Origin: Arthrobacter cryoconiti
GTDB taxonomy: Bacteria; Actinomycetota; Actinomycetes; Actinomycetales; Micrococcaceae
DNA length: 64,000 bases
Direction of reading: 5' to 3'
Assembly: GCF_020905375.1 (NCBI RefSeq)
Contig: NZ_JAJJBU010000004.1
Location: forward strand, 1 to 64,000
Part shown: positions 36,131-52,243 of the stretch, piece by piece
How positions within the stretch are numbered: the first letter of the stretch is position 1
How the letters are laid out: each line of letters starts with the position of its first letter
Position numbers and translations under genes: made by a program
Notes under the pieces: model-generated
Databases searched by the model: none
The model's input: only the letters and a program-made list of their open reading frames with translations
What the model was told of the DNA's origin: nothing

Positions 36131-36160
36131 CTATCGGCGCCACATATATGTTTCGTAAGG
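36131..36160 (-). promoter_or_regulatory. Sigma-28-like promoter of flgN operon
   Basis: On the minus strand CCTTACG, 15 bp, then GCCGATAG. The -10 half is one base from the classical sigma-28 GCCGATAA and the same pair recurs at four other flagellar positions. The predicted start lies about 35 nt before the flgN GTG. Confidence 0.75.
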
Positions 36161-36378
36161 ACCATACCTACGTGACCTTGCTGTGAATGTCCTGAACTTT
36201 TGCCAACTGTAACCAAAACGATACCTAGTTGCTGACGCTTTATCTCCATTTAGGGACGATTTTATTCTAAAGTGACAGTGCCGCTTGGGATCGAAAACTG
36301 GTGGCACGCCTGGGGGGGTGTCGTTTATCAGCGCTTGCATATCAGCGCTCGTTTTTGAGTGTCAAGGGGGATTTGCCG

Positions 36379-37212
36379 TTGGATAATGAGGAACGCGACA
36401 ATTTAGTCGTGCAAAATTTGCCTTTAGTGGGGTATCTGGTCTCCGAAATCTGCATGCGGGCCAGCCACCTTTCACGGCCTGATCTAACACAAGTGGGTGC
36501 TGTAGCGCTCATTCACTGTGCCGAATCTTTTGACGAGAGTCTCGGTGTGCCTTTTGGGGCCTACGCGCGCCGCCGGATTAAAGGGGCGTTTGCCGACGAG
36601 CTGCGGCGCGAGGACTGGGCCACGCGCGGGGCCAGGACGCGTATGAGCGAGCACTCCGTCATGGCGGAAACACTTTCAGCCAAGCTTGGCCGGGTTCCGT
36701 CTACGGTGGAACTGGCAGCCGCCTTGGGTGTGGACCGCGCCACGGTTGAAGCCGCCAGGGTCGACGCCTCCCGTACTGTAACCCCCTTGACCGACGTGAT
36801 CGCTGACATGGTGGCCGCCGCGGCGCCCAACCCAGAAGACACTGTGGTGGAGAGCGAACATGCGGCTTTTCTGGCCGCCGCCGTAGCCGCACTGCCGGAA
36901 AAGATGCGTTACATCGTGGAGCAGGTTTACTACGGGGATCGCAGCGTGAAAGAGCTGGCTGAGGAACTCGGTTCTAGCCATTCGGCCGTCTCCCAGCAAC
37001 GCTCCGAAGCGATGCGTCTCTTGCGTGACGGTATTGAGCGACACTACTTGGCGACGGCTGATGCGAACTCTGTCCCGCATGCCAGAGTTGCACCTTCTCG
37101 CCGCGATGCTTATCTCTCTGAGCTGGGTGCGCGGACTCTGGGGGGTGCCACGCGGGCGCTGGGCGCTGTGACCCGGCTTCAGGGTCAAGCGTGGGAACCG
37201 GCGATTAGCTGA
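36379..37212 (+). CDS. fliA: Flagellar sigma factor, FliA/SigD (sigma-28) type
   Basis: The protein has sigma-70 regions 2 (NLPLVGYLVSEIC; DLTQVGAVALIHCAE; FGAYARRRIKGAFADELRRED), 3 (GRVPSTVELAAALGVDRATVE) and 4 (KELAEELGSSHSAVSQQRSEAM). It belongs to the FliA/WhiG group, which lacks region 1. A TTG at 36379 is chosen because AAGGGGG lies 8 nt before it; a frame start at 36301 adds 26 basic residues with no family match. After region 4 a tail of about 60 residues (SRRDAYLSELGARTLGGATRA) is unusual. It very probably drives the five motif copies reported here. Confidence 0.88.
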   Translation: MDNEERDNLVVQNLPLVGYLVSEICMRASHLSRPDLTQVGAVALIHCAESFDESLGVPFGAYARRRIKGAFADELRREDWATRGARTRMSEHSVMAETLSAKLGRVPSTVELAAALGVDRATVEAARVDASRTVTPLTDVIADMVAAAAPNPEDTVVESEHAAFLAAAVAALPEKMRYIVEQVYYGDRSVKELAEELGSSHSAVSQQRSEAMRLLRDGIERHYLATADANSVPHARVAPSRRDAYLSELGARTLGGATRALGAVTRLQGQAWEPAIS

Positions 37213-37278
37213 TGACGGCCCTTCTTGCCTCGTGTGCAATGAGCCTTGGAGTATCTGAAGAATTGTTGGCGGAACACT

Positions 37279-37307
37279 CCTAACCGCTTCCTGTGAGATG
37301 CCGACAG
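37279..37307 (+). promoter_or_regulatory. Sigma-28-like promoter of flagellin
   Basis: CCTAACC, 14 bp, GCCGACAG. It gives a start near 37314 and a leader of about 58 nt before the flagellin ATG. Confidence 0.75.
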
Positions 37308-37319
37308 TGGTTTGCAGCT

Positions 37320-37333
37320 GCCCATGGATGGGC
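37320..37333 (+). promoter_or_regulatory. CsrA-type hairpin site in flagellin leader
   Basis: GCCC-AUGGAU-GGGC folds to a four-pair GC stem with the hexaloop AUGGAU, which is the ANGGAN loop that CsrA prefers. It lies 6 nt after the predicted transcript start. Confidence 0.6.
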
Positions 37334-37355
37334 GGCGAGTCAGTACCCACATTTC

Positions 37356-37362
37356 ACGGAGG
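37356..37362 (+). promoter_or_regulatory. CsrA-type site overlapping flagellin RBS
   Basis: ACGGAGG includes the Shine-Dalgarno GGAGG, 9 nt before the ATG, and an ACGGAG CsrA-type core. Bound CsrA would block ribosomes, as known for the Bacillus hag leader, which has two comparable sites. Confidence 0.6.
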
Positions 37363-37371
37363 ACACACATC

Positions 37372-38268
37372 ATGGGCATGCAAGTAAATACCAACATCGC
37401 GGCAAATAACGCGTACCGCAACCTCAGCAACACACAGAATGACCTGGCCAAGTCCTTGGAGAAGCTCTCCAGCGGACTGCGCATCAACCGTGCAGCCGAT
37501 GACGCTGCCGGTCTCTCCATCTCTGAAGGCCTCAAGGCTCAGGTCAACGGCTCCACCGTTGCTGCCCGTAACGCGCAGGACGGCATCTCCGTTGTCCAGA
37601 CCGCTGAAGGCGCGCTGACCGAAGTCCACACGATCCTTCAGCGTATGCGTGACCTGGCCGTCCAGGGCGCCAACGATTCCAACAATGTTGACTCCCGTTT
37701 GGCCATCAAGAACGAAGCCGACCAGCTGGGTGGGGAACTCTCCCGCATCTCCGAGTCGACCAACTTCAATGGCATCAACCTGTTCCAGGCTGGTGGCAAC
37801 GCCACTGCCGTCCCCCCCGTTCCTGCTGGTCCGGCTACGTTGAGCTTCCAGGTCGGTGCCGATGGCTCGGCGGCATCCTCAATCTCTGTTGGCACCGTGA
37901 ACTTGGCGACTGCCCTAACTGACGTTGTGACGCTCACCAGTGGCACAGTGGTAGGAGCAGCTGCAGGGTTTGCTGTCACCGACAAGACCGCAGCGCAGAC
38001 CACCATCACGAACATTGACAAGGCCATTGCCAATGTTTCAACGGGTCGCTCGGAACTCGGTGCAAACCAGAACCGCCTGGAGTCGGCCAGCCGCTCCTTG
38101 TCGGTATCCAAGGAAAATCTGTCCGCTGCTGCCTCGCGTATCACGGACACGGACATGGCAGAGGAAATGGTCAAGTTCACACGCGCCAACATCCTCTCCC
38201 AGGCAGGTACCGCGATGCTGGCTCAGGCCAACCAGAGCAACCAGGGTGTCCTGAAGCTCCTAGGCTAA
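37372..38268 (+). CDS. hag: Flagellin
   Basis: The 298-residue flagellin has the conserved N-terminal D0/D1 (MGMQVNTNIAANNAYRNL; KLSSGLRINRAADDAAGL; MRDLAVQGANDSNN) and C-terminal D1/D0 (SELGANQNRLESASRSL; DTDMAEEMVKFTRANILSQ) regions around a very short variable centre (about residues 145-210). The ATG at 37372 follows GGAGG by 9 nt; the upstream frame is leader. It forms the filament; FliW and FliS are its assembly partners, both encoded here. Confidence 0.97.
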   Translation: MGMQVNTNIAANNAYRNLSNTQNDLAKSLEKLSSGLRINRAADDAAGLSISEGLKAQVNGSTVAARNAQDGISVVQTAEGALTEVHTILQRMRDLAVQGANDSNNVDSRLAIKNEADQLGGELSRISESTNFNGINLFQAGGNATAVPPVPAGPATLSFQVGADGSAASSISVGTVNLATALTDVVTLTSGTVVGAAAGFAVTDKTAAQTTITNIDKAIANVSTGRSELGANQNRLESASRSLSVSKENLSAAASRITDTDMAEEMVKFTRANILSQAGTAMLAQANQSNQGVLKLLG

Positions 38269-38314
38269 ACCGAAATAGTTAGCCAGTAGCTTCACTTTCT
38301 GGCGCAACGCGCCC

Positions 38315-38347
38315 CGGCGGTCGTGAACGCAATGTTCACGGCCGCCG
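38315..38347 (+). terminator. Hairpin after flagellin
   Basis: CGGCGGTCGTGAAC / GTTCACGGCCGCCG pair over 14 positions (one G-T) around GCAAT, 46 bp after the flagellin stop. No T-run follows. It probably ends or stabilises the flagellin transcript before fliD. Confidence 0.7.
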
Positions 38348-38414
38348 TCGGCGCAACGGTCATCATGTGACGCAGAGCAAAAGCAACAGCAGCACCTCGA
38401 AGGGGACCACACGC

Positions 38415-39803
38415 ATGGGTATTGGAATTGATGGCTTGACCTCAGGGTTGAAGTCCACCGACATCATCAATGCCTTGATGGGTGCGGAGGCCATCCCCCA
38501 AACGCAACTCAAGAGCAAAGTTGCCAAGGACAGTTATCTTCTCACTGCTCTCCAAGCCCTAAACTCCAAGTTTGCCAATTTACAAACACAGGCTTCAGGA
38601 CTGGCCAAGCCTGATGGACTGGCCAAGTACCAAGTGGCGTCGTCATCCCCCGCCATCACCGCAACTCTGGCCACCGGAGCTAAACCAATCACCATGGACC
38701 TGGCTGTCACGGCTTTGGCCCAAGCCCATTCCGTGGTGACAGCGCCCCTGCAGGCCTGGCCTACCAGCCCCGCAGTTTTGACGTTCGTCAAGGCGGACGG
38801 AAGCAAAACGGAAATTTCTGCCGCCACGGGGTCGCTGGACGATGTTGCCTATGCAATCAACAAATCCAATGCGGGAATTTCCGCTGTGAAAGTAGCCTCG
38901 GGAACAGCGCCCGATGGATCAATGCAGTACCGTTTGCAGCTCACGGCGACCGATACCGGTGCCGCGAACGCCTTCAACGTCTATGACGGAAGTGCCGCCG
39001 AAGTGACCGCCGGAACGGCAACATCCTTGACGGCAGCCCCAGGTGCCGCGGTCCTACGGACCGGAAAGGACGCGGCTGTGACGCTATGGGCCGGCACGCC
39101 CGCGGAACTGAGCATTTCTTCGGCCTCCAATACCTTTGCAGGCATTGCGCCAGGCCTGGACATTACCGTCCACCAGCTTTCCGCGACTGCCGTCTCGGTG
39201 GACGTCACCCGCGACGGTGGAATGGTCACGGACGCGGCGAAAGAGTTGATGTCCAACGTCAACATTATTCTGGGATCCATTTTTACTCAGTCCGCAGTGT
39301 CCGGTTCTACGGGCGCTGGCGGAAGCGGGGTGACCTCGGGCTTGTTTACAAGCAACAGCACCACTTCTGCTGCCAAGGACAAACTCTTCAACGCAGTCGC
39401 CGCGCCCATCAACGGTTTCTCCCCCGCAACGATAGGGATCAATACAACCAAAAATGGAGACTTCGTTTTCGATGCCGACGTCTTTGCTGCAGCGTACGCG
39501 AAGGATCCCGCGGCGGTTGAGGGCACATTGGCCACTATTTCCCAGCGAGTGGCTGACGCTGCCAAGGCCGTAGCTGACCCCCGTGAAGGCACTCTGTCCC
39601 AAACTGTCAAGGGCAAGCAAACGGTGATCGACGATTTGAACGACCAGATCCTCAAATGGGATGACCGATTGACACAAAGACGTGGCGCTTTAGTAACCAC
39701 CTATGCGAATCTGGAAGTGCAATTGGGGCGGATGAAGTCCCAACAAGATTGGTTGAGCTCGCAAATCAGCTCCATGTCTAACTCGAACAACTCCAAGAAC
39801 TGA
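38415..39803 (+). CDS. fliD: Filament cap protein FliD
   Basis: The 462-residue protein begins MGIGIDGLTSGLKSTDIINALM and ends with DDLNDQILKWDDRLTQRRG and LEVQLGRMKSQQDWLSSQISSM, both FliD signatures. It caps the growing filament. The ATG at 38415 has GAAGGGGA before it; the frame start at 38367 lies in the untranslated leader. No motif of the sigma-28 type was found before it. Confidence 0.92.
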   Translation: MGIGIDGLTSGLKSTDIINALMGAEAIPQTQLKSKVAKDSYLLTALQALNSKFANLQTQASGLAKPDGLAKYQVASSSPAITATLATGAKPITMDLAVTALAQAHSVVTAPLQAWPTSPAVLTFVKADGSKTEISAATGSLDDVAYAINKSNAGISAVKVASGTAPDGSMQYRLQLTATDTGAANAFNVYDGSAAEVTAGTATSLTAAPGAAVLRTGKDAAVTLWAGTPAELSISSASNTFAGIAPGLDITVHQLSATAVSVDVTRDGGMVTDAAKELMSNVNIILGSIFTQSAVSGSTGAGGSGVTSGLFTSNSTTSAAKDKLFNAVAAPINGFSPATIGINTTKNGDFVFDADVFAAAYAKDPAAVEGTLATISQRVADAAKAVADPREGTLSQTVKGKQTVIDDLNDQILKWDDRLTQRRGALVTTYANLEVQLGRMKSQQDWLSSQISSMSNSNNSKN

Positions 39804-39816
39804 TGGACGCTGGCAC

Positions 39817-40230
39817 ATGAGAGCTTCAACCCGCGCCTTGAACGCGTTCGCGCGTGAGGCAGTCCTCTCGGCATCACCGGCCCGGCTGCTTGTGATGCTC
39901 TTTGACCGGCTCATGCTAGATATGGGTCGGGCCGAAGCGGCTCAAACCGCCGAGCAGTGGGACGTGGCTCGGGAAAACCTGATGCACGCGCAGGAAATTA
40001 TTGGTGAACTGTCCGGTTCCCTGGACCTGGATGCGTGGGACGGGGCGGCCGGCCTGCTGGGTATTTACAGCTACGCTGGCACGGCATTGATGAATGCCAA
40101 CATCTACCGCAACGTTGAGCTGACACGTGAATGCATCGGTCTCTTGGAACCATTGCGCCAGAGCTGGCATGATGCCGCCGCCGCACCAGCCATCCACTCC
40201 GGAGTTTCACCACGTGGAGATCTTGGATGA
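39817..40230 (+). CDS. fliS: FliS flagellin chaperone
   Basis: The 137-residue helical protein has the FliS pattern SASPARLLVMLFDRLMLDMGRAE, followed by ARENLMHAQEIIGELSGSLD and YAGTALMNANIYRNVELTRECIGLLEPLRQSW. It holds flagellin in an unpolymerised state for export. It lies 13 bp after fliD. Confidence 0.9.
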   Translation: MRASTRALNAFAREAVLSASPARLLVMLFDRLMLDMGRAEAAQTAEQWDVARENLMHAQEIIGELSGSLDLDAWDGAAGLLGIYSYAGTALMNANIYRNVELTRECIGLLEPLRQSWHDAAAAPAIHSGVSPRGDLG

Positions 40231-40283
40231 ACATTTGGCCCAGTGCCACGGTATCTGTTGAGGGAACACTAAGGAGTATCCAC

Positions 40284-40616
40284 ATGGATGAAGTGAGTAA
40301 CCGCCGCTGGGTGGCAGCATTAGATCTCCTCCAGCTTCAGGCGGACCAAGCCATTGCCAGCTGCGGATCGGACGTGTCCACTCAGGGCGGCCATGTGCCA
40401 GCAACAGCGGGCGAAATCCTGGCCTGGGCGCCGCCGTCGGACTTGGGAGAGATCCCGGACGATCTGATGGGACGTGCCCAAACGGTGCTGGAGCTCCAGA
40501 AGCGAGCGGCTGCACTGCTGGCCGCGTCCCAGGCCGTCGTTGAAGCCGAAATGGGAGACCTTGTTCCGCCGCCACGCGCACAGGTGCGTCCACTGTATGT
40601 GGACGTGATCGGGTAG
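40284..40616 (+). CDS. Small helical protein after fliS
   Basis: The 110-residue product is not recognised by sequence. It is helical (LDLLQLQADQAI; AQTVLELQKRAAALLAASQAVVEAEMG). AAGGAG precedes the ATG, so this start is firm. In this position other bacteria encode FliT, the fliD chaperone, but no FliT motif is seen; a chaperone role is inferred only from position. Confidence 0.65.
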   Translation: MDEVSNRRWVAALDLLQLQADQAIASCGSDVSTQGGHVPATAGEILAWAPPSDLGEIPDDLMGRAQTVLELQKRAAALLAASQAVVEAEMGDLVPPPRAQVRPLYVDVIG

Positions 40617-40651
40617 CTAGCGCAACGTGGAAGAAAATCTTCCCAGGTGCT

Positions 40652-40680
40652 CCTTACGCACCACAGGCGGCGGCCGATAG
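40652..40680 (+). promoter_or_regulatory. Sigma-28-like promoter before flgB
   Basis: CCTTACG, 14 bp, GCCGATAG. The predicted start lies about 60 nt before the flgB GTG, so the hook-basal-body genes could start here rather than at an early promoter. Confidence 0.72.
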
Positions 40681-40748
40681 ATAGATACAGAGCACGGACT
40701 GCTCGCACCAGGCCATGGACCGGCCCGATCTCGTCAAGGAAGAACGCA

Positions 40749-41090
40749 GTGCTGGATTCTGTGGTCACCGTGGCGCTTACGAGCGCCTTGAGCTCCCTTT
40801 CCGAACGCCAAAAAGCGATCGCCAACAACATAGCCAACGTCAATACTCCCGGGTATACGGCCAAACGCGTCATGTTCGAAGACGCTCTGGCGGCATCGGT
40901 TAAGGCCGGAGACGGTCACGCTTCGGCGAGTACTGCCCGCTCGTTGGAGCCCACGCGCTTGGATGGCAATAACGTCAACCTTGACACCGAGACGCTCTCC
41001 AATGTTGAGACAGTGCTCCGATACCAATTTGCCGCACAAGCTGTTGGTAGCGAATTTACCGCCATGCGCACAGCATTGAAGTCCCAGTAA
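40749..41090 (+). CDS. flgB: Flagellar rod protein FlgB
   Basis: The 113-residue protein begins VLDSVVTVALTSALSSLSER and has KAIANNIANVNTPGYTAKRVMFED, the rod-protein motif, and ends LRYQFAAQAVGSEFTAMRTAL. It is part of the proximal rod. A GTG at 40749 is chosen because the family aligns there and AAGGA lies 8-12 nt upstream; the longer frame is not supported. Confidence 0.9.
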   Translation: MLDSVVTVALTSALSSLSERQKAIANNIANVNTPGYTAKRVMFEDALAASVKAGDGHASASTARSLEPTRLDGNNVNLDTETLSNVETVLRYQFAAQAVGSEFTAMRTALKSQ

Positions 41091-41476
41091 TGGCCGACGC
41101 AATAGGCATCGCCTCTACAGCCCTGACCCTGCACCGCAAGTGGTTGGATGCGGTCTCGGATAACCTGGCGAACGCCAATACGGCCACCGCCACCAGCGGC
41201 GAAGCGTTCCGAGCACACTATGTTCTGGCCGAAGCGGGCGAAGGAAACACCGGCGTATATGTGGCTGGTACCGCTCTGGGGAAAGCCGAGGGCCGGATGG
41301 TCTACGAACCGGATCATCCACTCGCCGACGCCGAAGGGTACGTCCGTTACCCAGATATTGATCTGGCTTCCCAAATGGGCCAGCTCATCATGGCCCAACG
41401 TGGCTACCAGGCCAACGCTGCTGTGGTGGACCGTGCCAAGACTATGTACGAGGCTGGATTGCAGATTGGAAAATAA
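41090..41476 (+). CDS. flgC: Flagellar rod protein FlgC
   Basis: The 128-residue protein has an N-terminal rod motif (LDAVSDNLANANTATAT) and a C-terminal GYVRYPDIDLASQMGQLIMAQRGYQANAAV. It forms proximal rod with FlgB. The start overlaps the flgB stop. Confidence 0.92.
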   Translation: MADAIGIASTALTLHRKWLDAVSDNLANANTATATSGEAFRAHYVLAEAGEGNTGVYVAGTALGKAEGRMVYEPDHPLADAEGYVRYPDIDLASQMGQLIMAQRGYQANAAVVDRAKTMYEAGLQIGK

Positions 41477-41479
41477 CCC

Positions 41480-41788
41480 ATGAGCCTTACACCGATTCAG
41501 GGCGTGCAGGCGACAGCGGCAACAACCTTTCTGCAAGACGGTATGCAAGCTTCCGCTCCAGGTGGCGGTGCCGGATTCGGGACTGCGCTGGCCGGGGCGC
41601 TGGATAACGCCCAGGTGCTCTCCAGTAATGCCAACACTCTGGCCGTGCAGGCCGTCACTGGAAACTTGGATGACATTCATAACGCCACTCTTGCTGCTAC
41701 TCGCGCTCAAGTGACGCTGGAGCTGATCTCAACGGTGCGTAACAAAGGCATCGATGCGTTCAACGAGATCATGAGGATGCAGGCCTGA
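41480..41788 (+). CDS. fliE: FliE rod-MS ring adapter
   Basis: The 102-residue protein has the FliE pattern: GTALAGALDNAQVLSSNANT in the middle and IHNATLAATRAQVTLELISTVRNKGIDAFNEIMRM at the end. It joins the MS ring to the rod. It lies 3 bp after flgC and abuts fliF. Confidence 0.92.
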   Translation: MSLTPIQGVQATAATTFLQDGMQASAPGGGAGFGTALAGALDNAQVLSSNANTLAVQAVTGNLDDIHNATLAATRAQVTLELISTVRNKGIDAFNEIMRMQA

Positions 41789-43377
41789 TGCCTCCCGTAC
41801 TCACAAAATTTATGGGCGGCGCGCAAACAACGCTCAAAGGCTTTAGCATTGCCCAGCGCACGCTAGCGGTTATTGGTGTGGCAGTTTTGGTACTTGGTGC
41901 CGTGGCTCTAGGATCCTGGTTGAGCCGGCCCACCTATGCGCCACTGTTCTCTGGCATTGCCGCCGCCGATGCCAGCGCCATTGTTGCCCAACTGAAGACG
42001 GATAACGTTCCGTACCAGCTATCAAACGGCGGCTCCACCATTCTGGTCCCGGATGCCAATGTCTATGAAGAGCGGCTCAAAGCAGCCTCCGCTGGTTTGC
42101 CCGCTGCCACCACGGGCGGGTATTCACTCTTGGATTCCATGGGGGTGACGTCCTCTGAATTCCAACAAAACGTCACGTACAAGAGGGCCATGGAAGGGGA
42201 GCTGGCTAAGACCATCATGGCCATGAATGGCGTGCAGAACGCATCAGTGAAGCTGGCTATCCCGGAACGCACGGTGTTTACAGCAACAAAGACGGATCCA
42301 ACAGCGTCCGTCTTTGTTGAAACCTCCGCCTCCACGCAGCTTTCCACGGATCAGGTGGAGGCTGTGGTGCACTTGGTATCCTCAGCGGTGGAAGGCTTGA
42401 AGCCGACGAATGTTTCGGTTGTGGACTCCAAAGGCACCGTTTTATCCGCAGCGGGCGCAGCAGCAGGTGGCGGGGCAGCTAAGAGTGCCACGGAGTATGA
42501 AAAACGCACTTCGCTGGCTGTTCAGACCATGCTGGATCGTGTACTGGGGCCGGGTAACTCCACCGTGTCATTGACGGCGGCCATGGACAATTCTTCGTCG
42601 GAAGTTCTCAAAGAATCGTTTGCAGCCCCTGCCAACGTTCCAGCACTCAATGAATCCAGCAGTTCCAATAAGTCCACTAATGGTACCGGTACGGGAGCCG
42701 GAGTACTGGGGCCGGATAACATCGCCGTTCCCAGCGGAACGGCTGGCGGCACCACGGAATCCAACAGTGCCACCAAAAATAATGCCGTGGATAAGACCAC
42801 TGCCAACACCACCGTCCCGGCTGGAAATCTGCAAAAACAGTCACTTGCCGTAGCTGTCGACGCCGGTGCGGCCCAGAAAGTGGACGCAGCGACTTTGACG
42901 GACATGGTGGTTGCAGCGGCCGGTATTGACCGGGCCCGAGGTGACGTCGTCACAGTGAAAGTGGTGCCGTTCTCCACTGCCCAAGCCGACGCCGCGAAGT
43001 CTGCGCTGGACGCCGCTAAAGCCGACGCGAACGCAGCAGCGACGGCCAAGACTTGGCAAACAATACTTATCAGTGCCCTGGCTGTTCTCCTGATCGCTTT
43101 GGCCCTGATCCTTTACGCCAGGAAGAACCGGCGCCAGGTGCGTCAGTTGGTGGACTTGGGCGAACGCAAGGAAGCGCTCTCGCAACTGGATTCCCTCTCC
43201 ATCACCTCTCCGGAAACCACCACCTTGCCAGCCATTGACGAGCCGGTTGCACTGCCCGCTGTGGAGAACAGCGATGTGGATTCCAAGCGTGCCTCCATCA
43301 ACGCTTTGGCCATGGCAGACCCGGCAAAAGCTGCCGGGTTACTGCGCACACTGATGGATGAACGGACCACGGTGTGA
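41788..43377 (+). CDS. fliF: MS-ring protein FliF
   Basis: The 529-residue protein has a first membrane helix (residues 25-45), a YscJ-like periplasmic domain (LFSGIAAADASAIVAQLKTDNVPYQL; VKLAIPERTVFT), a Ser/Asn-rich stretch and a second helix (TILISALAVLLIALALILYA). The C-terminal tail binds FliG. It forms the MS ring in the membrane. Confidence 0.95.
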   Translation: MPPVLTKFMGGAQTTLKGFSIAQRTLAVIGVAVLVLGAVALGSWLSRPTYAPLFSGIAAADASAIVAQLKTDNVPYQLSNGGSTILVPDANVYEERLKAASAGLPAATTGGYSLLDSMGVTSSEFQQNVTYKRAMEGELAKTIMAMNGVQNASVKLAIPERTVFTATKTDPTASVFVETSASTQLSTDQVEAVVHLVSSAVEGLKPTNVSVVDSKGTVLSAAGAAAGGGAAKSATEYEKRTSLAVQTMLDRVLGPGNSTVSLTAAMDNSSSEVLKESFAAPANVPALNESSSSNKSTNGTGTGAGVLGPDNIAVPSGTAGGTTESNSATKNNAVDKTTANTTVPAGNLQKQSLAVAVDAGAAQKVDAATLTDMVVAAAGIDRARGDVVTVKVVPFSTAQADAAKSALDAAKADANAAATAKTWQTILISALAVLLIALALILYARKNRRQVRQLVDLGERKEALSQLDSLSITSPETTTLPAIDEPVALPAVENSDVDSKRASINALAMADPAKAAGLLRTLMDERTTV

Positions 43378-44414: not shown

Positions 44415-45132
44415 TCGCGCCGTTGGAACCGTTCCGGTGGCCTTCCCCAGGGTCGCAACCGGGGTCGGAAAAGATGAAGATCAGGCCAGAACGCGTGGTT
44501 TCACGCAGGGTCATGCTGCCGGATACACGGCTGGACTGCGCCATGCTGCGCAGGAGACCGGAGAACTACGACGTGAGCTGACGACCCGGCACGCAGCGCT
44601 TGAGGAGGAGTTGCGTTCAACCACCACTGTTGAGTTGGCGGCAGTTGTGCGCGCAGCTTCGGCGCTGGCGCAGGCGTCGCTACCGGTGCTCGCGGACGCC
44701 GAACAAACGTTGATGGAATGTGCGCTGGCTCTAGCGGGTGCGGTTGTTCACCGGGAGGTGTACGACGCCGGTTCCTCCGCACGCGTGGCACTAGCCCGTG
44801 CGCTTGCCGGACTGGACGCGAATCAGGAATCCGGAGATGGACCCCATGAAGGTATCCGGGTCCGCATGAACCCCGTTGATGCGCAGGCTCTGGAAGCTGC
44901 GGCGCGAAGAACTTCTTCGACAGGAGTGCTTGCTAATTCTAAAGAACATGACCCCGACGTTGATTCGTTGACGCCCGTTGAGCCCGTCTCGCTGGCTGGA
45001 TTGGTCATTGTTCCGGACGCTGCCTTGGCTCCCGGCGATTCCGTAGCGGAATACCCTGACGGTTTTCTGGACGCCCGAATCACGAGCGCGCTTGAACGGG
45101 CGCGCCGGGCATTGCTGGGAGAGAGCATATGA
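44404..45132 (+). CDS. fliH: FliH-type export ATPase regulator
   Basis: The 242-residue protein has a Glu/Arg-rich coiled coil (LRRELTTRHAALEEELRSTT) and a C-terminal globular domain (LVIVPDAALAPGDSVAEYPDGFLDARITSALERARRAL) with the FliH end pattern. It holds FliI at the export gate. The ATG at 44404 overlaps fliG; the longer upstream frame is a shadow. Confidence 0.82.
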   Translation: MSTSRAVGTVPVAFPRVATGVGKDEDQARTRGFTQGHAAGYTAGLRHAAQETGELRRELTTRHAALEEELRSTTTVELAAVVRAASALAQASLPVLADAEQTLMECALALAGAVVHREVYDAGSSARVALARALAGLDANQESGDGPHEGIRVRMNPVDAQALEAAARRTSSTGVLANSKEHDPDVDSLTPVEPVSLAGLVIVPDAALAPGDSVAEYPDGFLDARITSALERARRALLGESI

Positions 45133-46493
45133 GTCCGGGGGGCGTCGGCACGCCGACCCTGACTCCTCGAGGAACTGAGCGATTGGCTGCGGCGCTTCGC
45201 GCGGCAGCACCCCAGCGGGTAGGCACCGTGACCGCCGTCGTCGGTCTGGGTGCCCAAGTCAGTGGACTTCGCTGCGCCGTCGGGGAACTGGTAGGCATCT
45301 ACTCTGCCAACTCGCCGGAAGCGGCCGTTATGGACGCTGAGGTGGTCGCTGTGGGTAGAGATGCATTGACCATTATGCCGCTGGGTCCAATGGCTGGACT
45401 GGCCTATGGAGACTTGGTTCGTGCGCGCACCGAGCCACTACTGGTTCCCACTGGTACGGGTTTGTTGGGCCGTGTTTTGGACGGGTTGGGCCGGCCGATT
45501 GACGGGCTGGGACCTCTTGCGCACAGCGTTGGCGTGTCAATGGATAATAGTGCCCCGAATTCCATGGAACGTACCCGCATTAGAACCCCGTTGAGCACTG
45601 GTGTGCGGGTCATGGATACGCTAACGACTGTGGGTCGTGGCCAGCGTATGGGCTTGTTTGCCGGCTCCGGCGTTGGCAAGTCATCGTTGCTTTCCATGAT
45701 TGCCCGCGGCACCGAGGCGCAGGTTTCCGTGATCGCGCTGGTGGGAGAGCGGGGCCGCGAAGTACGCGAGTTCCTCGAAGATGATCTGGGCGCAGAGGGC
45801 CTGGCCCGTTCCATCGTGGTGGTTGCCACAAGCGATGAGCCGGCGTTGGTCCGTATGCGGGCGGCTTTCACCGCCACCCGGATTGCCGAGTCCTTTCGCG
45901 ACGCCGGCGCAGACGTAGTCCTCATGATGGACTCGCTGACGCGTGTTGCCATGGCGCAACGCGAAATTGGTCTCTCCGTAGGTGAGCCACCCGCCACTCG
46001 CGGATATCCGCCGTCGACCTTTTCGCTGCTGGCGCGGCTGCTGGAGCGGGCAGGAACAGACAAGACTGGCTCCGTCACAGGTTTGTACACGGTATTGGTG
46101 GACGGCGATGATCACAATGAGCCCATTGCCGATGCAGTCCGTTCGCTGCTGGACGGCCATGTGGTCCTGGACCGCAAATTGGCCGTGGCTGGTCACTTTC
46201 CTTCGGTAGATGCGCTGGCATCTATCTCCAGAGTCGCCTCCAAAGTGTGCACGGCGGAGCAAAAACATGATGCGGCAGTGCTTCGCCGGGTTCTGGCAGC
46301 GCGGAGAAACGCCCAAGACCTCATCGACGTCGGCGCCTACCAAACGGGTTCAAACCCGTTGATAGACGCGGCATTGGTCCATGAAACTGCCATCAACAAT
46401 TTTTTGCAACAAGATCTTGAACACCAGGTTCCTGCAGATGCGTCCTGGGCCGCATTGCATTCCCTGGTTGACATGTTTGGAGGGCTCCCATGA
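45129..46493 (+). CDS. fliI: Flagellar export ATPase FliI
   Basis: The 454-residue protein has the F1-beta-like fold: Walker A (FAGSGVGKSS, about residue 180), Walker B (DVVLMMDSLTRVAMAQREI) and the PPATRGYPPSTFSLLARLLERAG signature. It powers flagellar type III export. The start overlaps the fliH stop by 4 bp. Confidence 0.96.
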   Translation: MSPGGVGTPTLTPRGTERLAAALRAAAPQRVGTVTAVVGLGAQVSGLRCAVGELVGIYSANSPEAAVMDAEVVAVGRDALTIMPLGPMAGLAYGDLVRARTEPLLVPTGTGLLGRVLDGLGRPIDGLGPLAHSVGVSMDNSAPNSMERTRIRTPLSTGVRVMDTLTTVGRGQRMGLFAGSGVGKSSLLSMIARGTEAQVSVIALVGERGREVREFLEDDLGAEGLARSIVVVATSDEPALVRMRAAFTATRIAESFRDAGADVVLMMDSLTRVAMAQREIGLSVGEPPATRGYPPSTFSLLARLLERAGTDKTGSVTGLYTVLVDGDDHNEPIADAVRSLLDGHVVLDRKLAVAGHFPSVDALASISRVASKVCTAEQKHDAAVLRRVLAARRNAQDLIDVGAYQTGSNPLIDAALVHETAINNFLQQDLEHQVPADASWAALHSLVDMFGGLP

Positions 46494-46909
46494 CCGCCGC
46501 TTTTAGACTTGCTGGTTTGCTACGTTTCCGTAAGCTGCAGGAAGACCAGGCATCGGCAACACTCGCGCGGGCCAATGGCAAGCGGCGAACTCATGCCGTA
46601 CGTACGGCGCAGGCGCTGGGAGAGCTTGCAGAGACCGCTTCCCAAGCAGCCACGGCTACAGCCTTGAGCGCATCAGCTGCTGCGCGTGCCGCCTCGCGCA
46701 GCATGCTGCACGAATTCTCCGGGTTGGCCGCAGCCCTTGATGCCAGTGCTCATACCGCGCAGGAAGATCTGGTGGTGGCCAAAATGGCGGCGAGTTCACT
46801 CACGAAACTTGCCGAACGCCACGAAGCGGCCGCGGGAAAGGCGAATCTTGCTGAGGAGCAGCGCTTTCTTGACGAATTGGCAGCAAGCAAGCGGACGGAC
46901 ATGCCATGA
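46490..46909 (+). CDS. fliJ: FliJ-like coiled-coil protein
   Basis: The 139-residue protein begins MTAAFRLAGLLRFRKLQEDQA and is a continuous Ala-rich coiled coil, as in FliJ, the stalk between FliI and FlhA. Sequence similarity is weak; position between fliI and fliK supports it. Start and end overlap neighbours by 4 bp. Confidence 0.75.
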   Translation: MTAAFRLAGLLRFRKLQEDQASATLARANGKRRTHAVRTAQALGELAETASQAATATALSASAAARAASRSMLHEFSGLAAALDASAHTAQEDLVVAKMAASSLTKLAERHEAAAGKANLAEEQRFLDELAASKRTDMP

Positions 46910-48489
46910 GCGCCGTCGCAACAAGCACTGCGCTGCCGCTTGCCAAGGGGGCATCTGTGTCCGCAACCCGATCCGGTCTTGCTGATAGCCACGAGGACGC
47001 CTCGGGTCGTAGTTTTGCAGCACGACTCCACCAAGCGCTTGACGGCGCCGGTGACACCACCTCGAATACCGGAAGTCCGGGCGGAGCTGGTGCGGGTTCG
47101 GGCGCCGCTGCGCCGGCCACCGCTGCGCCAAGCATATCGACGGATAAAGTCAAAGACTCCGCGGCAGACGCTGGTGGTCAGGTTGGCGCATCAGCGAACC
47201 CTGCTGTGCCAGCTCCCCAGAACCCAGCTGTGCTGCCGGGCAACCTTGCCTTGAACGTGCACGAGCCAACAGATTCGGGCGCCGCCATAGGTATTGCGTC
47301 TGTGGTCGGTAGCTCTGCTGGTAGTGCCGTGACAGGTGTCGTTTCATCCGGCGGACCGGGGACATCGCTCGATCCGACAGCGTCCACGCGGACGGCAGCT
47401 GCCCCGACGGCGGGTCAAGCTGGAGCAGCGGCTGGTGCAATGGCGGATTCGCAAGCTGCTGTCACGTCCGGTGGGACATCAGCTGCCTCGACGGCGGGTC
47501 AAGCTGGAACAGCCGCGGGTACAGCGGTGGATTCGCAAGTTGCCATCACGCCCGGTGGGACATCCGCGCAGTCCACGAATGCCCCAGCCACGTCCGCGCA
47601 GCAGTTCGCAACCCCGATGACAGCGGCTGCTGCGAACGCCGGGGCAGGGGCGGGCTTTGGAACGCCGGCGCCATCAACGGTTTCGATGCCCGCGACGTCA
47701 ACCAAGGCGGCATCCACTGTTTCGTCCGGTACTGTTTCGCCCGGCACTGTTTCGCCCGGCACTGCTGGGTCGATTTCTGGCTCGGCCGCATCTCCTGCGC
47801 CAACATCCCTAGCTGGCGATATTCTTGGCGCGGCGGCAACCGTTGACGCCTCTGCGGCCCCCGAAGTAACAGCGGCCTCCGCATTAACAGCGGACGCCGG
47901 CGCGCAACGCAAGCCAAGCGACGCCGTCGTACTCCCGGCACCCACCGTCGAACTGAACACCCTGACAGCCCTGGGGCACCAAGCGCCGGCGCCAAACTCT
48001 GTTTCGGCCCCTGTGCAGGCTCCGGCGCCCGTGGTGGCCGTACCCACCGCGGTGCCTTTGACGGAGCAGCTCTCCCGGCCGATTTTCCAGCTTGCCACTG
48101 GGGCTGGCGGAACGCAGGTCATGACTGTGCAGGTGGTTCCGGATTCATTGGGTCCGGTCACTGTCCGCGCCCACTTGGCGGGCGATGGTGTGCGGATCGA
48201 GCTTCTCGCGGCCACTGATGCGGGTAGGGACGGGCTTCGGCTGATCCTGAACGACCTCAAACGCGACCTCGCGGCACAGGGCGTGTCTTCGAGCATGGAG
48301 CTCTCAAGTTCTCTCAACGATGGAGGGGCGCCGGGGCGTCAGCAAGCGTTTGACCGCGGTGGACCCGTGCCCTTTGGCGGATCACCCGGGATCCGGAACG
48401 CGGAAGTAGGCCGCCTAGGCAGGTCCCCACAAGGGCTGGCGTCCTCGCCGCATGGAATCTCCAGTACTCAACTCGACATCACGGTATAG
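46906..48489 (+). CDS. fliK: Hook-length control protein FliK
   Basis: The 527-residue protein has a long Ala/Ser/Thr/Pro/Gly-rich ruler region (about residues 1-370) and a C-terminal Flg_hook-type domain (TQVMTVQVVPDSLGPVTVRAHLAGDGVRIELLAATD). It measures hook length and switches export. The ruler holds an 84-bp direct duplication and shorter repeats (SPGTVSPGTAG). No membrane segment. Confidence 0.85.
   Translation: MSAVATSTALPLAKGASVSATRSGLADSHEDASGRSFAARLHQALDGAGDTTSNTGSPGGAGAGSGAAAPATAAPSISTDKVKDSAADAGGQVGASANPAVPAPQNPAVLPGNLALNVHEPTDSGAAIGIASVVGSSAGSAVTGVVSSGGPGTSLDPTASTRTAAAPTAGQAGAAAGAMADSQAAVTSGGTSAASTAGQAGTAAGTAVDSQVAITPGGTSAQSTNAPATSAQQFATPMTAAAANAGAGAGFGTPAPSTVSMPATSTKAASTVSSGTVSPGTVSPGTAGSISGSAASPAPTSLAGDILGAAATVDASAAPEVTAASALTADAGAQRKPSDAVVLPAPTVELNTLTALGHQAPAPNSVSAPVQAPAPVVAVPTAVPLTEQLSRPIFQLATGAGGTQVMTVQVVPDSLGPVTVRAHLAGDGVRIELLAATDAGRDGLRLILNDLKRDLAAQGVSSSMELSSSLNDGGAPGRQQAFDRGGPVPFGGSPGIRNAEVGRLGRSPQGLASSPHGISSTQLDITV
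47406..47573 (+). repeat. 84-bp tandem duplication in fliK
   Basis: Two adjacent in-frame 84-bp units begin GACGGCGGGTCAAGCTGGA at 47406 and again at 47490. They encode two 28-residue copies (TAGQAGAAAGAMADSQ... and TAGQAGTAAGTAVDSQ...). Confidence 0.85.
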
Positions 48490-48504
48490 AAAAGGAGCGT
48501 CACC

Positions 48505-48927
48505 ATCAGTAACGACCCCATTGCCCCAGCCGCGGTAGTCACCGGCCTCTACAGCTCCAACGCTGCCTCACGCACGCCCAAACAATCCATGGACTCGGAG
48601 GTGTTCATGCACCTGCTGGTGACCCAGCTGCGCAACCAGGATCCCTCGTCCCCCATGGATACGAATCAGATGATCAGCCAAACCACGCAGTTGGCCACCA
48701 TGGAAAAACTGACGAACATGGAAAAAACTTCTGTGGAGAACTTTTCCCTTCAAATGCGGGCAGTAGCGGCCGCGACGCTGGGTCAGACGATCTCCTGGAA
48801 AGACGCCGACGGCACCGAACACAGCGGTGTGGCGGAGTCAGTCTCGTTCGCTAAAGGTGTTCCGCAGGTGAAGGTGGGCGAGCACGAAGTAGCCCTGGAC
48901 ATTATCTCCGGCATCGGCACAAAGTAA
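48505..48927 (+). CDS. flgD: Hook-capping protein FlgD, apparent AUC start
   Basis: About 141 residues. The core DSEVFMHLLVTQLRNQDPSSPMD and TNQMISQTTQLATMEKLT is FlgD, the hook cap. An in-frame ATG occurs only at 48589, immediately before this core. Upstream the frame stays open to 48490 and encodes ISNDPIAPAAVVTGLYSSNA, and a strong AAAAGGAG ends 7 nt before an ATC codon at 48505. So translation most likely begins at ATC (AUC), a rare start, or the sequence has an ATG-to-ATC change. It is short because the C-terminal FlgD domains are reduced (SAVAESVSFAKGVPQVKVG). Confidence 0.75.
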   Translation: MSNDPIAPAAVVTGLYSSNAASRTPKQSMDSEVFMHLLVTQLRNQDPSSPMDTNQMISQTTQLATMEKLTNMEKTSVENFSLQMRAVAAATLGQTISWKDADGTEHSGVAESVSFAKGVPQVKVGEHEVALDIISGIGTK

Positions 48928-48981
48928 ACAACTTCTCCACTTGTAGTTCCACCTCTCACCCGGCATAGAAGGGCTCCACCC

Positions 48982-50154
48982 ATGCTTCGCTCACTGTATT
49001 CAGGTATCTCCGGCCTCCGCGCACACCAGACAATGCTCGACGTCACCGGCAACAACATTGCCAACGTCAACACTGCTGGCTTCAAAGGTTCTAGTGTGCA
49101 ATTTCAGGACACCTTGTCCCAGCTGACCCGTGGGGGCTCTGCCGCGCAAGGCGCCAACGGTGGCACCAACCCGGCCCAGGTAGGCCTCGGCGTGCAGGTG
49201 GCCGCCATCTCCACGAACTTCGCTCAGGGCTCGGCTCAAGCGACCGGACGATCCACAGACATGATGATCGCCGGCGACGGCTTCTTCGTCGTCAGCAAGG
49301 GCGGTCAGCAGTCCTACGCCCGGGCAGGCGCCTTTGACTTTGACTCCCGCGGTCGGTTGGTTTCCCCGGACGGAGCGTTGCTGCAAGGATGGCCAGCCGT
49401 CAATGGACAAATTAACTCGGGGGGTGCTTTGGGAGACATCCGGATCTCCAAAGACATGACGGCGCCGGCAGCCGCGACCTCCCAAGCCAAGCTGGGTGGC
49501 AATCTGCCCAGCGACGCCGTGGTCCCGGAGCAAATCGTCCGCGACATTCAGGTCTTCGACAACACCGGCAAGGCACGCAACCTGGCCCTGACGTTCACCA
49601 AGAACGCAACGGGCTGGGACGTGGCTGCCGCAGATGAAAACGGTGCCACAGGAGCAATCGCGTTGCAATTTAGTGGTGGCGCACTGACCTCTGTTGGCAC
49701 CATGGCAGTTGGTGGCATCACTGTAGACATGACCGCACTCACCGGCAACGCGGGGGCCAAAACCGTTGCAGTGACCACGAAAGACGGTAACGCGGCCGGG
49801 ACCTTGGAATCATTTGCCATGGGCACCGACGGAACGCTGACGGGAACCTTTAGCAATGGACAAAACGTGGTGGTCGGCCAGGTTGCTCTGGCCAACTTCA
49901 CTAACCCCGGTGGTTTGGAAAAGACCGGCTCTTCGAGCTACCGAGCCACCGCCTCTTCGGGCACGGCAACCATCGGACAGGCCGGCCAAGGAGGCTTGGG
50001 TGAACTGACCAGTGGCTACGTGGAGATGTCCAATGTGGATCTCTCCCAAGAATTCACCAACCTGATCGTTGCCCAGCGCGGATTCCAAGCTAATGCGCGC
50101 ATCATCACCACTTCGGACGAGGTCCTGCAGGAGCTAACCCAGCTCAAGCGCTAG
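48982..50154 (+). CDS. flgE: Flagellar hook protein FlgE
   Basis: The 390-residue protein begins MLRSLYSGISGLRAHQTMLDV with NNIANVNTAGFKGSSVQFQD and ends GYVEMSNVDLSQEFTNLIVAQRGFQANARIITTSDEVLQEL, as FlgE/FlgG-type proteins do; the size fits the hook. AGAAGGG precedes the ATG. It is followed directly by a terminator with a promoter in it. Confidence 0.93.
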   Translation: MLRSLYSGISGLRAHQTMLDVTGNNIANVNTAGFKGSSVQFQDTLSQLTRGGSAAQGANGGTNPAQVGLGVQVAAISTNFAQGSAQATGRSTDMMIAGDGFFVVSKGGQQSYARAGAFDFDSRGRLVSPDGALLQGWPAVNGQINSGGALGDIRISKDMTAPAAATSQAKLGGNLPSDAVVPEQIVRDIQVFDNTGKARNLALTFTKNATGWDVAAADENGATGAIALQFSGGALTSVGTMAVGGITVDMTALTGNAGAKTVAVTTKDGNAAGTLESFAMGTDGTLTGTFSNGQNVVVGQVALANFTNPGGLEKTGSSSYRATASSGTATIGQAGQGGLGELTSGYVEMSNVDLSQEFTNLIVAQRGFQANARIITTSDEVLQELTQLKR

Positions 50155-50161
50155 TGCTGAT

Positions 50162-50190
50162 CCCGCCCCATTCCTAACGGTTGGGGCGGG
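50162..50190 (+). terminator. flgE terminator hairpin
   Basis: CCCGCCCCA / TGGGGCGGG form a perfect 9-bp stem with an 11-nt loop, 7 bp after the flgE stop. No T-run follows. The loop and right arm contain the next promoter. Confidence 0.65.
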
Positions 50191-50201
50191 GTGGCCGACA
50201 G
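50173..50201 (+). promoter_or_regulatory. Sigma-28-like promoter of flbD-motAB
   Basis: CCTAACG, 14 bp, GCCGACAG. It overlaps the flgE terminator hairpin. The predicted start is about 45 nt before the flbD ATG. Confidence 0.72.
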
Positions 50202-50252
50202 TGGTGGCTGTACGCGGTTGACGCCGTGCAGGTACGCGAAAAGGATGCGCCG

Positions 50253-50579
50253 ATGATAATTGTGACCCGCCTGGATGGCCGGCACTTTGCGGTGAACCCG
50301 GACCTCGTTGAGCGTATTTTTGAATCCCCTGACACCACCCTGGTCATGGCAGACGGTGGACGGTTTATCGTCACCGAAACCATGGCGGATGTCATCGAGA
50401 AAATTGCCCGCTTCCGAGCCCGGGTAATCGCGATTGCCTACAACGCTCCTGATGACAGCGACGACACCGACGACGATACCGACGGCGAGGTGAGCGTTCC
50501 GGATGGACGTGGCTCGCCGCGTCTGAGCATCATCCACCCTGCTGGGACACCCGGCGGAACCAATATTGGCAGGGCGTAA
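50253..50579 (+). CDS. flbD: FlbD family protein
   Basis: The 108-residue protein begins MIIVTRLDGRHFAVNPDLVERI, with ESPDTTLVMADGGRFIVTET, the FlbD pattern. FlbD proteins of Gram-positive bacteria lie in flagellar operons; their function is uncertain. The acidic C-terminal tail is extra. AAAGGA is 6 nt before the ATG. Confidence 0.85.
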   Translation: MIIVTRLDGRHFAVNPDLVERIFESPDTTLVMADGGRFIVTETMADVIEKIARFRARVIAIAYNAPDDSDDTDDDTDGEVSVPDGRGSPRLSIIHPAGTPGGTNIGRA

Positions 50580-50582
50580 ACC

Positions 50583-51401
50583 ATGGATCCGGCAACACTT
50601 ATAGGCATCTTGCTCGCTTTTGGGGCGCTCACTGCCATGATCAACTTAGAGGGCTCGACGGTTGCCAGTGTCATACTGCTACCGCCCATGCTCCTGGTCT
50701 TCGTTGGTACGATCTCGGTCGGGGCGGCAGGCTCCACGCTCAAAGACGTTATACATTCCTTCAAGGCGCTGCCGAAGGCCTTCATGGCCAAGCCGACCGC
50801 ACCAACGGCGAGCATTGAGACTGTGGTTGCGCTAGCCGAAAAAGCCCGTCGGCAGGGCTTACTGTCCTTGGAAGAGGACGCGGCAAATACGAAGGATGAG
50901 TTCCTCCGTGATGCGCTGCAGAACATTGCCGACGGAACTGATGGCGATGAACTGCGCGAGATGCTCGATGATGCGATCGACACGAAAATGAAGTCGGACG
51001 GCATCGCCGCTAAATTCTTCCAGACCTTGGGAGGCTACGCACCCACCGTGGGGATTGTGGGAACCGTTGTCTCTTTGACCCATGTGTTGGAAAATCTTTC
51101 CACCCCGAGCACCTTGGGTCCCATGATCGCCAGCGCCTTCGTTGCGACTCTTTGGGGACTGCTCACAGCAAACTTCCTGTGGCTGCCCATCGGCTCAAAG
51201 TTGGCAAGGCTCTCCGAACTGGAAGTTGACCGGATGAATCTGGTCATGGAAGGCGTTCTCGCCGTCCAAGCTGGCTCACAGCCCACGCTGCTGCGCGAAC
51301 GCTTGATCGCCATGGTCCCGGCCCATCATCGCAAGTCGGGCAAAGCTGCAAAGTCATCGGGCCGAGACGGCAACGATGAAAAGCTAAAGTCAGTCGCATG
51401 A
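50583..51401 (+). CDS. motA: Flagellar stator MotA
   Basis: The 272-residue protein has four membrane helices and the MotA motifs AMINLEGSTVASVILL near the start, KSDGIAAKFFQTLGGYAPTVGIVGTVVSLTHVLENLSTPSTLG and MIASAFVATLWGLLTANFLWLPIGSKL. With MotB it forms the ion-driven stator. It overlaps motB by 4 bp. Confidence 0.95.
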   Translation: MDPATLIGILLAFGALTAMINLEGSTVASVILLPPMLLVFVGTISVGAAGSTLKDVIHSFKALPKAFMAKPTAPTASIETVVALAEKARRQGLLSLEEDAANTKDEFLRDALQNIADGTDGDELREMLDDAIDTKMKSDGIAAKFFQTLGGYAPTVGIVGTVVSLTHVLENLSTPSTLGPMIASAFVATLWGLLTANFLWLPIGSKLARLSELEVDRMNLVMEGVLAVQAGSQPTLLRERLIAMVPAHHRKSGKAAKSSGRDGNDEKLKSVA

Positions 51402-52219
51402 GTGCCTCCGGAGGCAAGGGGCGTAAGGGTAGGAAGCGTCGTGGTGGATCCGGAGATCACCACCCGGACGAGCGCTGGATGGCTTCCTACATGGACATGG
51501 TTACGGTGTTGATGTGCCTGTTCATCGTTTTGTATGCCATGTCCTCAGTAGATAGCGAGAAATTCAGCCAACTTAAGAACTCCTTGGCCACCGGTTTTGG
51601 GCAGGTCGACGTCGGTAAGATCGACACAGCTTCGGGAGTGGTGGTGCGCCCGGAGGATGTGGGCACCGAAGGAACATTCACCAACGACAAAATGGCCAAG
51701 GCGCTGGCGGAAGCTGACAAACTTGGTGCGCTGCGCGACTCGATGGCCGCAAGTCTCGCCGCTGCGGGGCTCTCTAACAATGTTGAATTTGTGATTGACC
51801 AGCGCGGGCTCACTGTGAAGCTCGTGGGTTCGCAAACCTTCTTCTTACCGGACAGCCCAGCTCTCTCCATGACCGCCGACAAGGTTTTGGCTGCCATCTC
51901 ACCCCAACTGGCGTCCGCCGGACTGGAAATATCCGTAGAAGGCCACGCAGCCAACGCCATTACCAGCTACCCCTCTGTTTGGGAGTTATCCGCAGACCGG
52001 GCGGTGGGGGTGCTGCGAAACTTGGTCGAGCGAGGAGGTATCCCCGGAACTTCGATCGGCGCCATGGGGTATGGCTCATCCCGACAGGTCAACGACGACT
52101 CCACGGAGGAGTTGCGTGAACTGAACCGAAGGGTGGATATAGTGGTGCTTTCCAATCAAGCTGAAGACGTCAGAGCGTTAATTCCTGAGGCGTTGAAAAG
52201 CAAAGGAAATATTCCCTAA
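51398..52219 (+). CDS. motB: Flagellar stator MotB
   Basis: The 273-residue protein has a basic N-terminus, one membrane helix (MASYMDMVTVLMCLFIVLYA, with the channel Asp at residue 33) and a C-terminal OmpA-like peptidoglycan-binding domain (ISVEGHAANAI, WELSADRAVGVLRNLVERGGIP, NRRVDIVVL). No Na+-type (PomB) feature is evident, so proton drive is likely but not proven. Confidence 0.95.
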   Translation: MSASGGKGRKGRKRRGGSGDHHPDERWMASYMDMVTVLMCLFIVLYAMSSVDSEKFSQLKNSLATGFGQVDVGKIDTASGVVVRPEDVGTEGTFTNDKMAKALAEADKLGALRDSMAASLAAAGLSNNVEFVIDQRGLTVKLVGSQTFFLPDSPALSMTADKVLAAISPQLASAGLEISVEGHAANAITSYPSVWELSADRAVGVLRNLVERGGIPGTSIGAMGYGSSRQVNDDSTEELRELNRRVDIVVLSNQAEDVRALIPEALKSKGNIP

Positions 52220-52243
52220 CGGGATCCCGGCCGCTGCCGATAG
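52215..52243 (+). promoter_or_regulatory. Sigma-28-like promoter before fliM
   Basis: CCTAACG (partly over the motB stop), 14 bp, GCCGATAG. The -10 ends 8 nt before the fliM GTG, so transcription would begin within a few bases of the start codon. Confidence 0.7.

Follow-up and report, generated by a model that had tools for sequence, protein, structure and literature searches.

The flagellar locus and its probable promoter sites

The stretch of DNA analysed here (the window; 64,000 nucleotides, positions 1 to 64,000 of contig NZ_JAJJBU010000004.1) belongs to Arthrobacter cryoconiti, a member of the Micrococcaceae, and carries a flagellar gene cluster in which five copies of one motif, probable promoters for the sigma-28-type sigma factor FliA, stand before flagellar genes. 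Based on Pfam and NCBIfam, the minus-strand genes encode FlgK, a flagellin-type FlgL, FlgN and FliW. These are followed by genes for FliA, flagellin, FliD, FliS, FlgB- and FlgC-type rod proteins, FliE, FliF, FliG, the export ATPase (FliI) and FliK, then by those for FlgD, FlgE, FlbD, MotA, MotB, FliM, FliN, FliO, FliP, FliR, FlhB and FlhA, with CsrA at the cluster end. The frame taken as fliH has no Pfam match.

The motif is written as CTWAC-N15-GCCGAYAG (N16 at flgN), where N15 equals 14 nucleotides (nt) after the CCTWACS box used in a preliminary description. All five copies reported there were re-located at the same coordinates and strands, correctly oriented upstream of flagellar genes. 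On the minus strand, the site at 36131–36160 precedes flgN-flgK-flgL-fliW and combines a −35 of CTTAC with a 16-nt spacer (15 nt after the CCTTACS-type box) and the −10 GCCGATAG. The remaining sites are on the plus strand: the flagellin gene is preceded by CTAAC, a 15-nt spacer and GCCGACAG (37279–37307), the flgB...flgE gene run by CTTAC and GCCGATAG (40652–40680), flbD-motA-motB by CTAAC and GCCGACAG (50173–50201), and the run beginning fliM-fliN by CTAAC and GCCGATAG (52215–52243). The genes directly downstream are identified by Pfam as FlgN, flagellin, a rod protein (at flgB), FlbD and FliM; thus, early (flgB, fliM) and late (flagellin) operons both carry the motif, as had been described. 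At fliM, the TAA within the −35 doubles as the motB stop codon and the first GTG of the open reading frame lies at 52252; the fliM mRNA may be nearly leaderless.

The −10 reads GCCGAYAG at five of five sites and is similar to GCCGATAA, which agrees with the sigma-28 resemblance noted previously. The −35 bases are TAAC or TTAC rather than the canonical TAAA, at the expected 15–16 nt spacing. Exact copies of the N15 form number four in the A. cryoconiti genome (3,598,525 bases, 57 contigs) and the N16 form has a single exact match genome-wide, at flgN; the reversed N15 pattern has no exact match in this genome. All five exact matches lie inside the flagellar locus, with no further exact site elsewhere in the genome, which argues against an equal density of the motif in other regions. 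Allowing up to one mismatch adds eight N15 and six N16 places; however, the reversal outnumbers the motif once mismatches are allowed (321 vs 174 for N15 with up to two mismatches, 24 vs 7 for N16 with up to one), and the mismatched places thus look like background.

The fliA gene (36379–37212, plus strand) has a probable TTG start at 36379 behind a Shine-Dalgarno (SD)-like AAGGGGGA (36364–36371). The sigma factor gene that had been placed within the locus is FliA-type by its Pfam matches to Sigma-70 region 2 (7.1e-11) and region 4 (1.1e-09) and by its top NCBIfam model, FliA_WhiG. The score of 123.6 bits falls below the curated cut-off of 189.6 and, thus, marks a divergent member of the family. 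The six best PDB matches include the FliA chains 1rp3, 6pmi, 9wsm and 9wsf, and the recognition helix reads GSSHSAVSQQR. The C-terminal tail after region 4 bears an RRxxYL motif, which is present in 13 of the 17 FliAs looked at. In a genus alignment, partial conservation is noted for a TA[CA]A[GT]T-like stretch at 36267–36276, about 110 nt upstream of fliA; it may represent the sigma-A −10 of this gene.

Very probably, the five sites are promoters for the FliA encoded in the same locus. The near-identical copies upstream of flagellar operons would also fit the binding site of a flagellar activator or repressor. Such a regulator is highly improbable: the motif consists of two boxes with a 15–16-nt spacer in a fixed orientation, its variable bases track the sigma recognition helix (see below), and GCCGAYAG is like the −10 of the flagellar consensus TAAA/GCCGATAA, which PMC8325347 calls well established.

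Conservation among relatives

In a search of 295 genomes from the family, a FliA match at 1e-25 was obtained for 98; weaker FliAs are scored as missing at this threshold. The 98 include 96 with the exact N15 motif, vs 13 of the 197 without a match (Fisher 3e-60), whereas the reversed pattern is evenly spread (28 of 98 vs 54 of 197; Fisher 0.89); the Fisher values are nominal, as the genomes are related. Since the reversed pattern is found in 54 and the motif in 13 of the 197 genomes, those without a FliA match show no motif excess. The two fliA genomes missing the exact motif are G100 and G133. The FliAs of G133 and of G102, which is of the same family (loci L098 and L097), are 31–32% identical to that of A. 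cryoconiti, have the helix DATVSK and are accompanied by a different −35, GTGAA with GCCGATAA, before flagellin.

Placement was compared in 72 loci whose FliA has Ala at the position equivalent to 586 of sigma-70 (A586-type loci), using a slightly relaxed pattern and, as denominators, the loci in which the gene was mapped. The relaxed motif precedes flgN in 36/48, flagellin in 30/47, flgB in 26/46, flbD in 24/40 and fliM in 26/36; at fliM, a median of 8 nt separates the end of the −10 from the mapped start. It is found before flgE in one of 47 loci, before none of fliD, fliF, flgC, flgD, motA and fliN, and before fliA in 0 of 72. Within 1.37 Mb of these loci, the exact motif occurs 114 times and its reversal not once. 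The −10 is gene-specific, with GCCGACAG at 24 of 24 flbD sites and GCCGATAG at 33 of 36 flgN sites, a difference that may tune promoter strength. All ten genus members aligned (the window and nine others) retain the −35 CT[AT]AC at flagellin and flgB, while certain −10s deviate (GCCGAGAG, GCCGAGTG and TCCGATAG) and so account for part of the sites that the pattern misses. By comparison with relatives, the assignment of the sites as FliA promoters is graded as strong and appears well supported.

An arrangement closer to the classic hierarchy would give the early operons (flgB, fliM) additional sigma-A promoters, with the FliA sites as a second-tier boost. Dual promoters are common in flagellar systems, and fliA, which lacks the motif throughout the A586-type loci, seems to need a promoter of another kind. 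This arrangement is nonetheless unlikely, as a sigma-70 scan of 36000–41000 (a method that is weak for actinobacterial promoters, over a range that excludes fliM) returned a single candidate (36359–36387) that is not at flgB, against a chance level of 1.2.

In relatives, the motif points to possible regulon members beyond the flagellar cluster. Of 20 stretches with exact sites that were inspected, one is a flgB promoter. GGDEF-EAL-type genes have exact sites upstream in G053 and G025 (one checked by Pfam), as do genes of secreted metallopeptidases in G265, G286 and G272 (two checked by Pfam). In the metallopeptidase stretches (L134, L147 and L148), the site is 73–85 nt upstream of the gene, and Pfam reports a weak match to a reprolysin-like domain, along with LGFP or FG-GAP repeats, for L134 and L147. 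A conserved FliA-type site, CTTACATTTC..GCCGACAG, is noted before a PAS-GGDEF-EAL-type gene in G144 (L142, by Pfam) and G171 (L143). A FliA match at 1e-25 was not obtained for G171, and its site is perhaps a relic of lost motility. In nine of the other 12 stretches, the site overlaps a different open frame, apparently by chance.

Chemotaxis genes, suggested earlier as further targets, are unlikely to be such in A. cryoconiti, as no MCP (methyl-accepting chemotaxis protein) signalling domain is found in the assembly, which is 99.97% complete. FliM (52252–53160) starts almost at its core domain, and the N-terminal peptide, which in FliM proteins binds CheY, seems to be missing; this fits the absence of MCP domains.

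The −35 element and the recognition helix of FliA

The −35 had been described as a distinctive local variant of TAAA; instead, CT[AT]AC is common to three families of the order (f1, f4 and f9), while most other families examined have TCAG or TCAA. Titles and the opening lines of abstracts on Micrococcales FliA promoters and sigma-28 −35 specificity do not describe a −35 of the CT[AT]AC type. The sequence of this element correlates with two residues of the recognition helix, at positions that we take to be equivalent to 584 and 586 of sigma-70 and to face the −35. In A. cryoconiti these are His and Ala (H..A), whereas the FliAs of other families fetched have Glu and Arg (E..R) or Gln/Arg and Arg (Q..R, R..R).

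The −10 boxes were gathered upstream of the five head genes irrespective of the −35, the register being set by T.A at a spacer of 14–16. From 131 actinomycete FliAs, this yielded 283 −10 candidates spread over 96 loci; T.A is in register for 208 of them, located in 85 loci. A total of 35 loci without a −10 candidate and 11 more without a −35 in register were dropped before the code counts. Among the first 101 loci, A586 FliAs go with C-T-A-A-C at −20 to −16 (156 sites) and FliAs with S-R-V/I-S-Q go with C-T-C-A-G (33 sites). Base 5 follows the first residue: His goes with C (142 of 146 sites), Glu with G or A (35 of 35), Arg with C (8 of 9), Gln with C or T (9 of 12) and Leu, in one locus, with A (3 of 4). 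Base 3 follows the second residue, where Ala goes with A or T (142/146) and Arg with C (54/60). The −35 is thus T[A/T]AC at 142 of 146 H..A sites (129 of 129 when the spacer is 15 nt), TCA[G/A] at 32 of 35 E..R sites (TAAA at the other three), TCAC at 8 of 9 R..R sites and TCA[C/T] at 6 of 12 Q..R sites, or at 14 of 21 when the last two types are pooled. Agreement with this code is 0.95, compared to a maximum of 0.67 among 1000 label shuffles, for a code that was formulated after the data were seen and shuffles that ignore kinship. The code counts cover His, Glu, Arg, Gln and Leu at the 584 position; the FliAs with Ser there (8 of 131) are encoded away from the flagellar cluster.

A second set consists of the best 80 of at least 551 named loci, all H..A (116 −10 candidates, 50 loci with a site). 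It has CTWAC or ATTAC at 105 of 105 sites with T.A, and replicates the H..A half of the code in species partly common with the first set.

On trees, the A586 FliAs form one clade, the Q..R and R..R families f8, f45 and f48 adjoin it, and E..R FliAs fall outside. Since the Q/R families fall between, the simplest reading is a change from Glu via Gln/Arg to His at the first residue, followed by Arg to Ala at the second. Shared ancestry alone, in which residues and bases happened to change on the same branches independently of each other, would also produce a correlation, all the more as the A586 FliAs are a single clade and independent events are few. This explanation is judged quite unlikely. 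The changed bases are in the −35, and of the ten FliA columns that separate H..A from E..R (at chosen thresholds) two lie in the −35 recognition helix, one of them, the 586 column, without exception (Ala 72/72, Arg 38/38). Base 5 and base 3 each track a residue of their own, and in most Q..R and R..R sites the former has changed and the latter is retained. The pattern suggests a stepwise change of −35 specificity in sigma-28, through few independent events, and the residue-base code is regarded as a good, simple hypothesis of a correlative kind.

Leader hairpins, FliW and CsrA

The checkpoint gene flgM was not recognized in A. cryoconiti, as the best match to FlgM (E 0.8) is not over the cut-off. 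According to PMC10746217, the non-FlgFG actinobacterial classes are without FlgM, and PMC2587704 describes the control of FliA without FlgM in actinobacteria as an open question. The flagellar cluster is flanked by fliW (32880–33284, minus strand; Pfam FliW 9e-17), of the CsrA antagonist family, and csrA (60374–60529, plus strand; Pfam CsrA 3.4e-22 in the genome search and 4.1e-23 in another), the open frame of which runs past the CsrA domain. Just past csrA, a Stealth-domain protein (CR1–CR4) is encoded on the minus strand (60669–62192). No Rfam family reaches its gathering score between 32000 and 61000.

Two of the promoter sites are followed by hairpins of the CsrA type, for which an ANGGA hairpin loop is the signature in PMC7652899. 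By the definition given there, a CsrA site is a short hairpin whose loop presents GGA as part of ANGGAN; the predicted sites agree with it, the flgB loops being 7 nt. The flagellin leader has gctgccc-ATGGAT-gggcggc with an ANGGAN loop (37317–37336, plus strand), and a second ANGGA overlaps the SD (CACGGAGGAC, 37355–37364). The flgB leader has two, gagc-ACGGACT-gctc (40690–40704) and ggcc-ATGGACC-ggcc (40711–40725), both on the plus strand. Of the three, only the second flgB hairpin is present in the minimum-energy leader fold.

Across the A586 loci, ANGGA-loop hairpins occur in 43 of 46 leaders of flgB, 34 of which have two, and in 34 of 47 of flagellin, compared to means of 0.6 and 1.4, respectively, over ten shuffles. 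They are likewise found in 48/49 flgB and 34/57 flagellin leaders of the named set and, among loci with Arg at 586 (R586), in 29/44 flgB, 40/49 flagellin and 18/24 flbD leaders. For the other genes, 0 to 5 leaders each have such a hairpin, mostly inside the shuffle range; slightly above the shuffle maximum are fliA (5/80), fliD (4/54) and flgE (4/48) of the named set and flgE (3/41) of the R586 loci. The 7-nt loops of flgB are flanked by pairs in 169 of 216 distinct contexts vs 2, 0 and 0 when slid, a count that pools two different hairpins and mixes pair types, and the 6-nt loops of flagellin in 103 of 161 vs 5, 1 and 0. The CsrA layer is thus a conserved feature; a role for it, and control of the early flgB operon by CsrA-FliW, are plausible.

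Proposed mode of control

RNA polymerase with the locus-encoded FliA would recognize all five sites and transcribe from them, in a single tier, the gene runs that begin with flgN, flagellin, flgB, flbD and fliM. No motif precedes fliD, into which transcription presumably continues from the flagellin promoter; fliA likewise lacks the motif and would have to be started by other means. The CT[AT]AC −35 is proposed to be the product of a specificity change of sigma-28 in this part of the Actinomycetes, in which the helix residues Glu and Arg became His and Ala and the matching bases, formerly TCA[G/A], became T[A/T]AC; the Q..R and R..R families are intermediate. As FlgM is absent, early/late ordering is proposed to occur at the mRNA level, where CsrA, antagonized by FliW, would bind the ANGGA-loop hairpins of the flgB and flagellin leaders. 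Taken as a whole, this model is considered highly probable; its promoter part is strong, the −35 code is good but correlative, and ordering by CsrA-FliW is plausible.

A number of observations weigh against this model. G100 carries fliA yet has no exact site, and coverage by the relaxed pattern is incomplete, for example at flgB and flbD. No usable site was available for 46 of the 131 loci, and 75 of the 283 −10 candidates, 44 of them at flagellin, lack an in-register −35. Gln is loose in its preference, with TTAT at three, TCAA at two and TCAG at one of the 12 Q..R sites, and one Q..R FliA (L217, family f52) does not group with the others of its type but sits on a long branch. The H..A change occurred once on the tree, so the site counts are not independent events; the second tree has Shimodaira-Hasegawa-like approximate likelihood ratio (SH-aLRT) support only and leaves out L169 and L196 for their long branches. 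Residues adjoining the two also differ from canonical sigma-28, and the two may thus not be the whole code. On folding, the energies of four A. cryoconiti leaders did not improve on those of shuffles, and just one of the three hairpins appeared; the hairpin claim thus rests on conservation and on pairing across loci. Lastly, the whole model is read from sequence. The sites, their conservation, the residue-base correlation and the conserved hairpins are observed directly; from these we infer that FliA recognizes the sites, that the two residues are causal, and that CsrA binds and has an effect.

A more general scheme is offered tentatively, as a possibility held at rather less than even probability. 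In actinobacteria without FlgM, the assembly checkpoint may have moved from transcription to mRNA, with one sigma-28 switching on the operons for the flagellum. Early versus late output would be set by CsrA, which FliW would free or capture depending on flagellin export, and which would act in opposite ways on the paired hairpins ahead of flgB and on the leader of flagellin. Once released from its tie to FlgM, the sigma factor could have shifted by drift to a new −35 specificity, along a two-residue path whose intermediates are still living.

The coupling of the −35 to the recognition helix and the CsrA-type hairpins downstream of two promoters are new relative to the preliminary description. 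The former provides a clade with a changed sigma-28 −35, a residue-by-base hypothesis and natural intermediates, while CsrA-type hairpins on an early operon are a concrete candidate answer to how FliA is controlled without FlgM.

Comparison with known systems

Sigma-28 (FliA/WhiG) promoters, with a −35 of TAAA and a −10 of GCCGATAA, share with the A. cryoconiti sites the −10 core, a similar spacing, placement at flagellar operons and a FliA-type sigma factor, here encoded in the locus. By contrast, the A. cryoconiti sites have a CT[AT]AC −35 and a −10 ending in AG, and serve early as well as late operons in a genome where FlgM was not found. Other actinobacterial FliA families, of which the zoospore-former Actinoplanes is the studied case, likewise lack FlgM in the non-FlgFG classes (PMC10746217), but differ in their helix types, E..R accompanied mostly by TCA[G/A] or Q/R..R accompanied mostly by TCA[C/T], compared to H..A and T[A/T]AC in A. 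cryoconiti.

In Bacillus, CsrA represses flagellin translation until FliW removes CsrA; the accessible text of this review of the CsrA-FliW-flagellin switch (PMC7652899) has no mention of flgB. The A. cryoconiti locus is like that of Bacillus subtilis in having fliW and csrA and a flagellin leader with an ANGGA hairpin and a further ANGGA at the SD. Unlike the B. subtilis switch, the A. cryoconiti hairpins, often paired across relatives, are also present in the leader of the early flgB operon.

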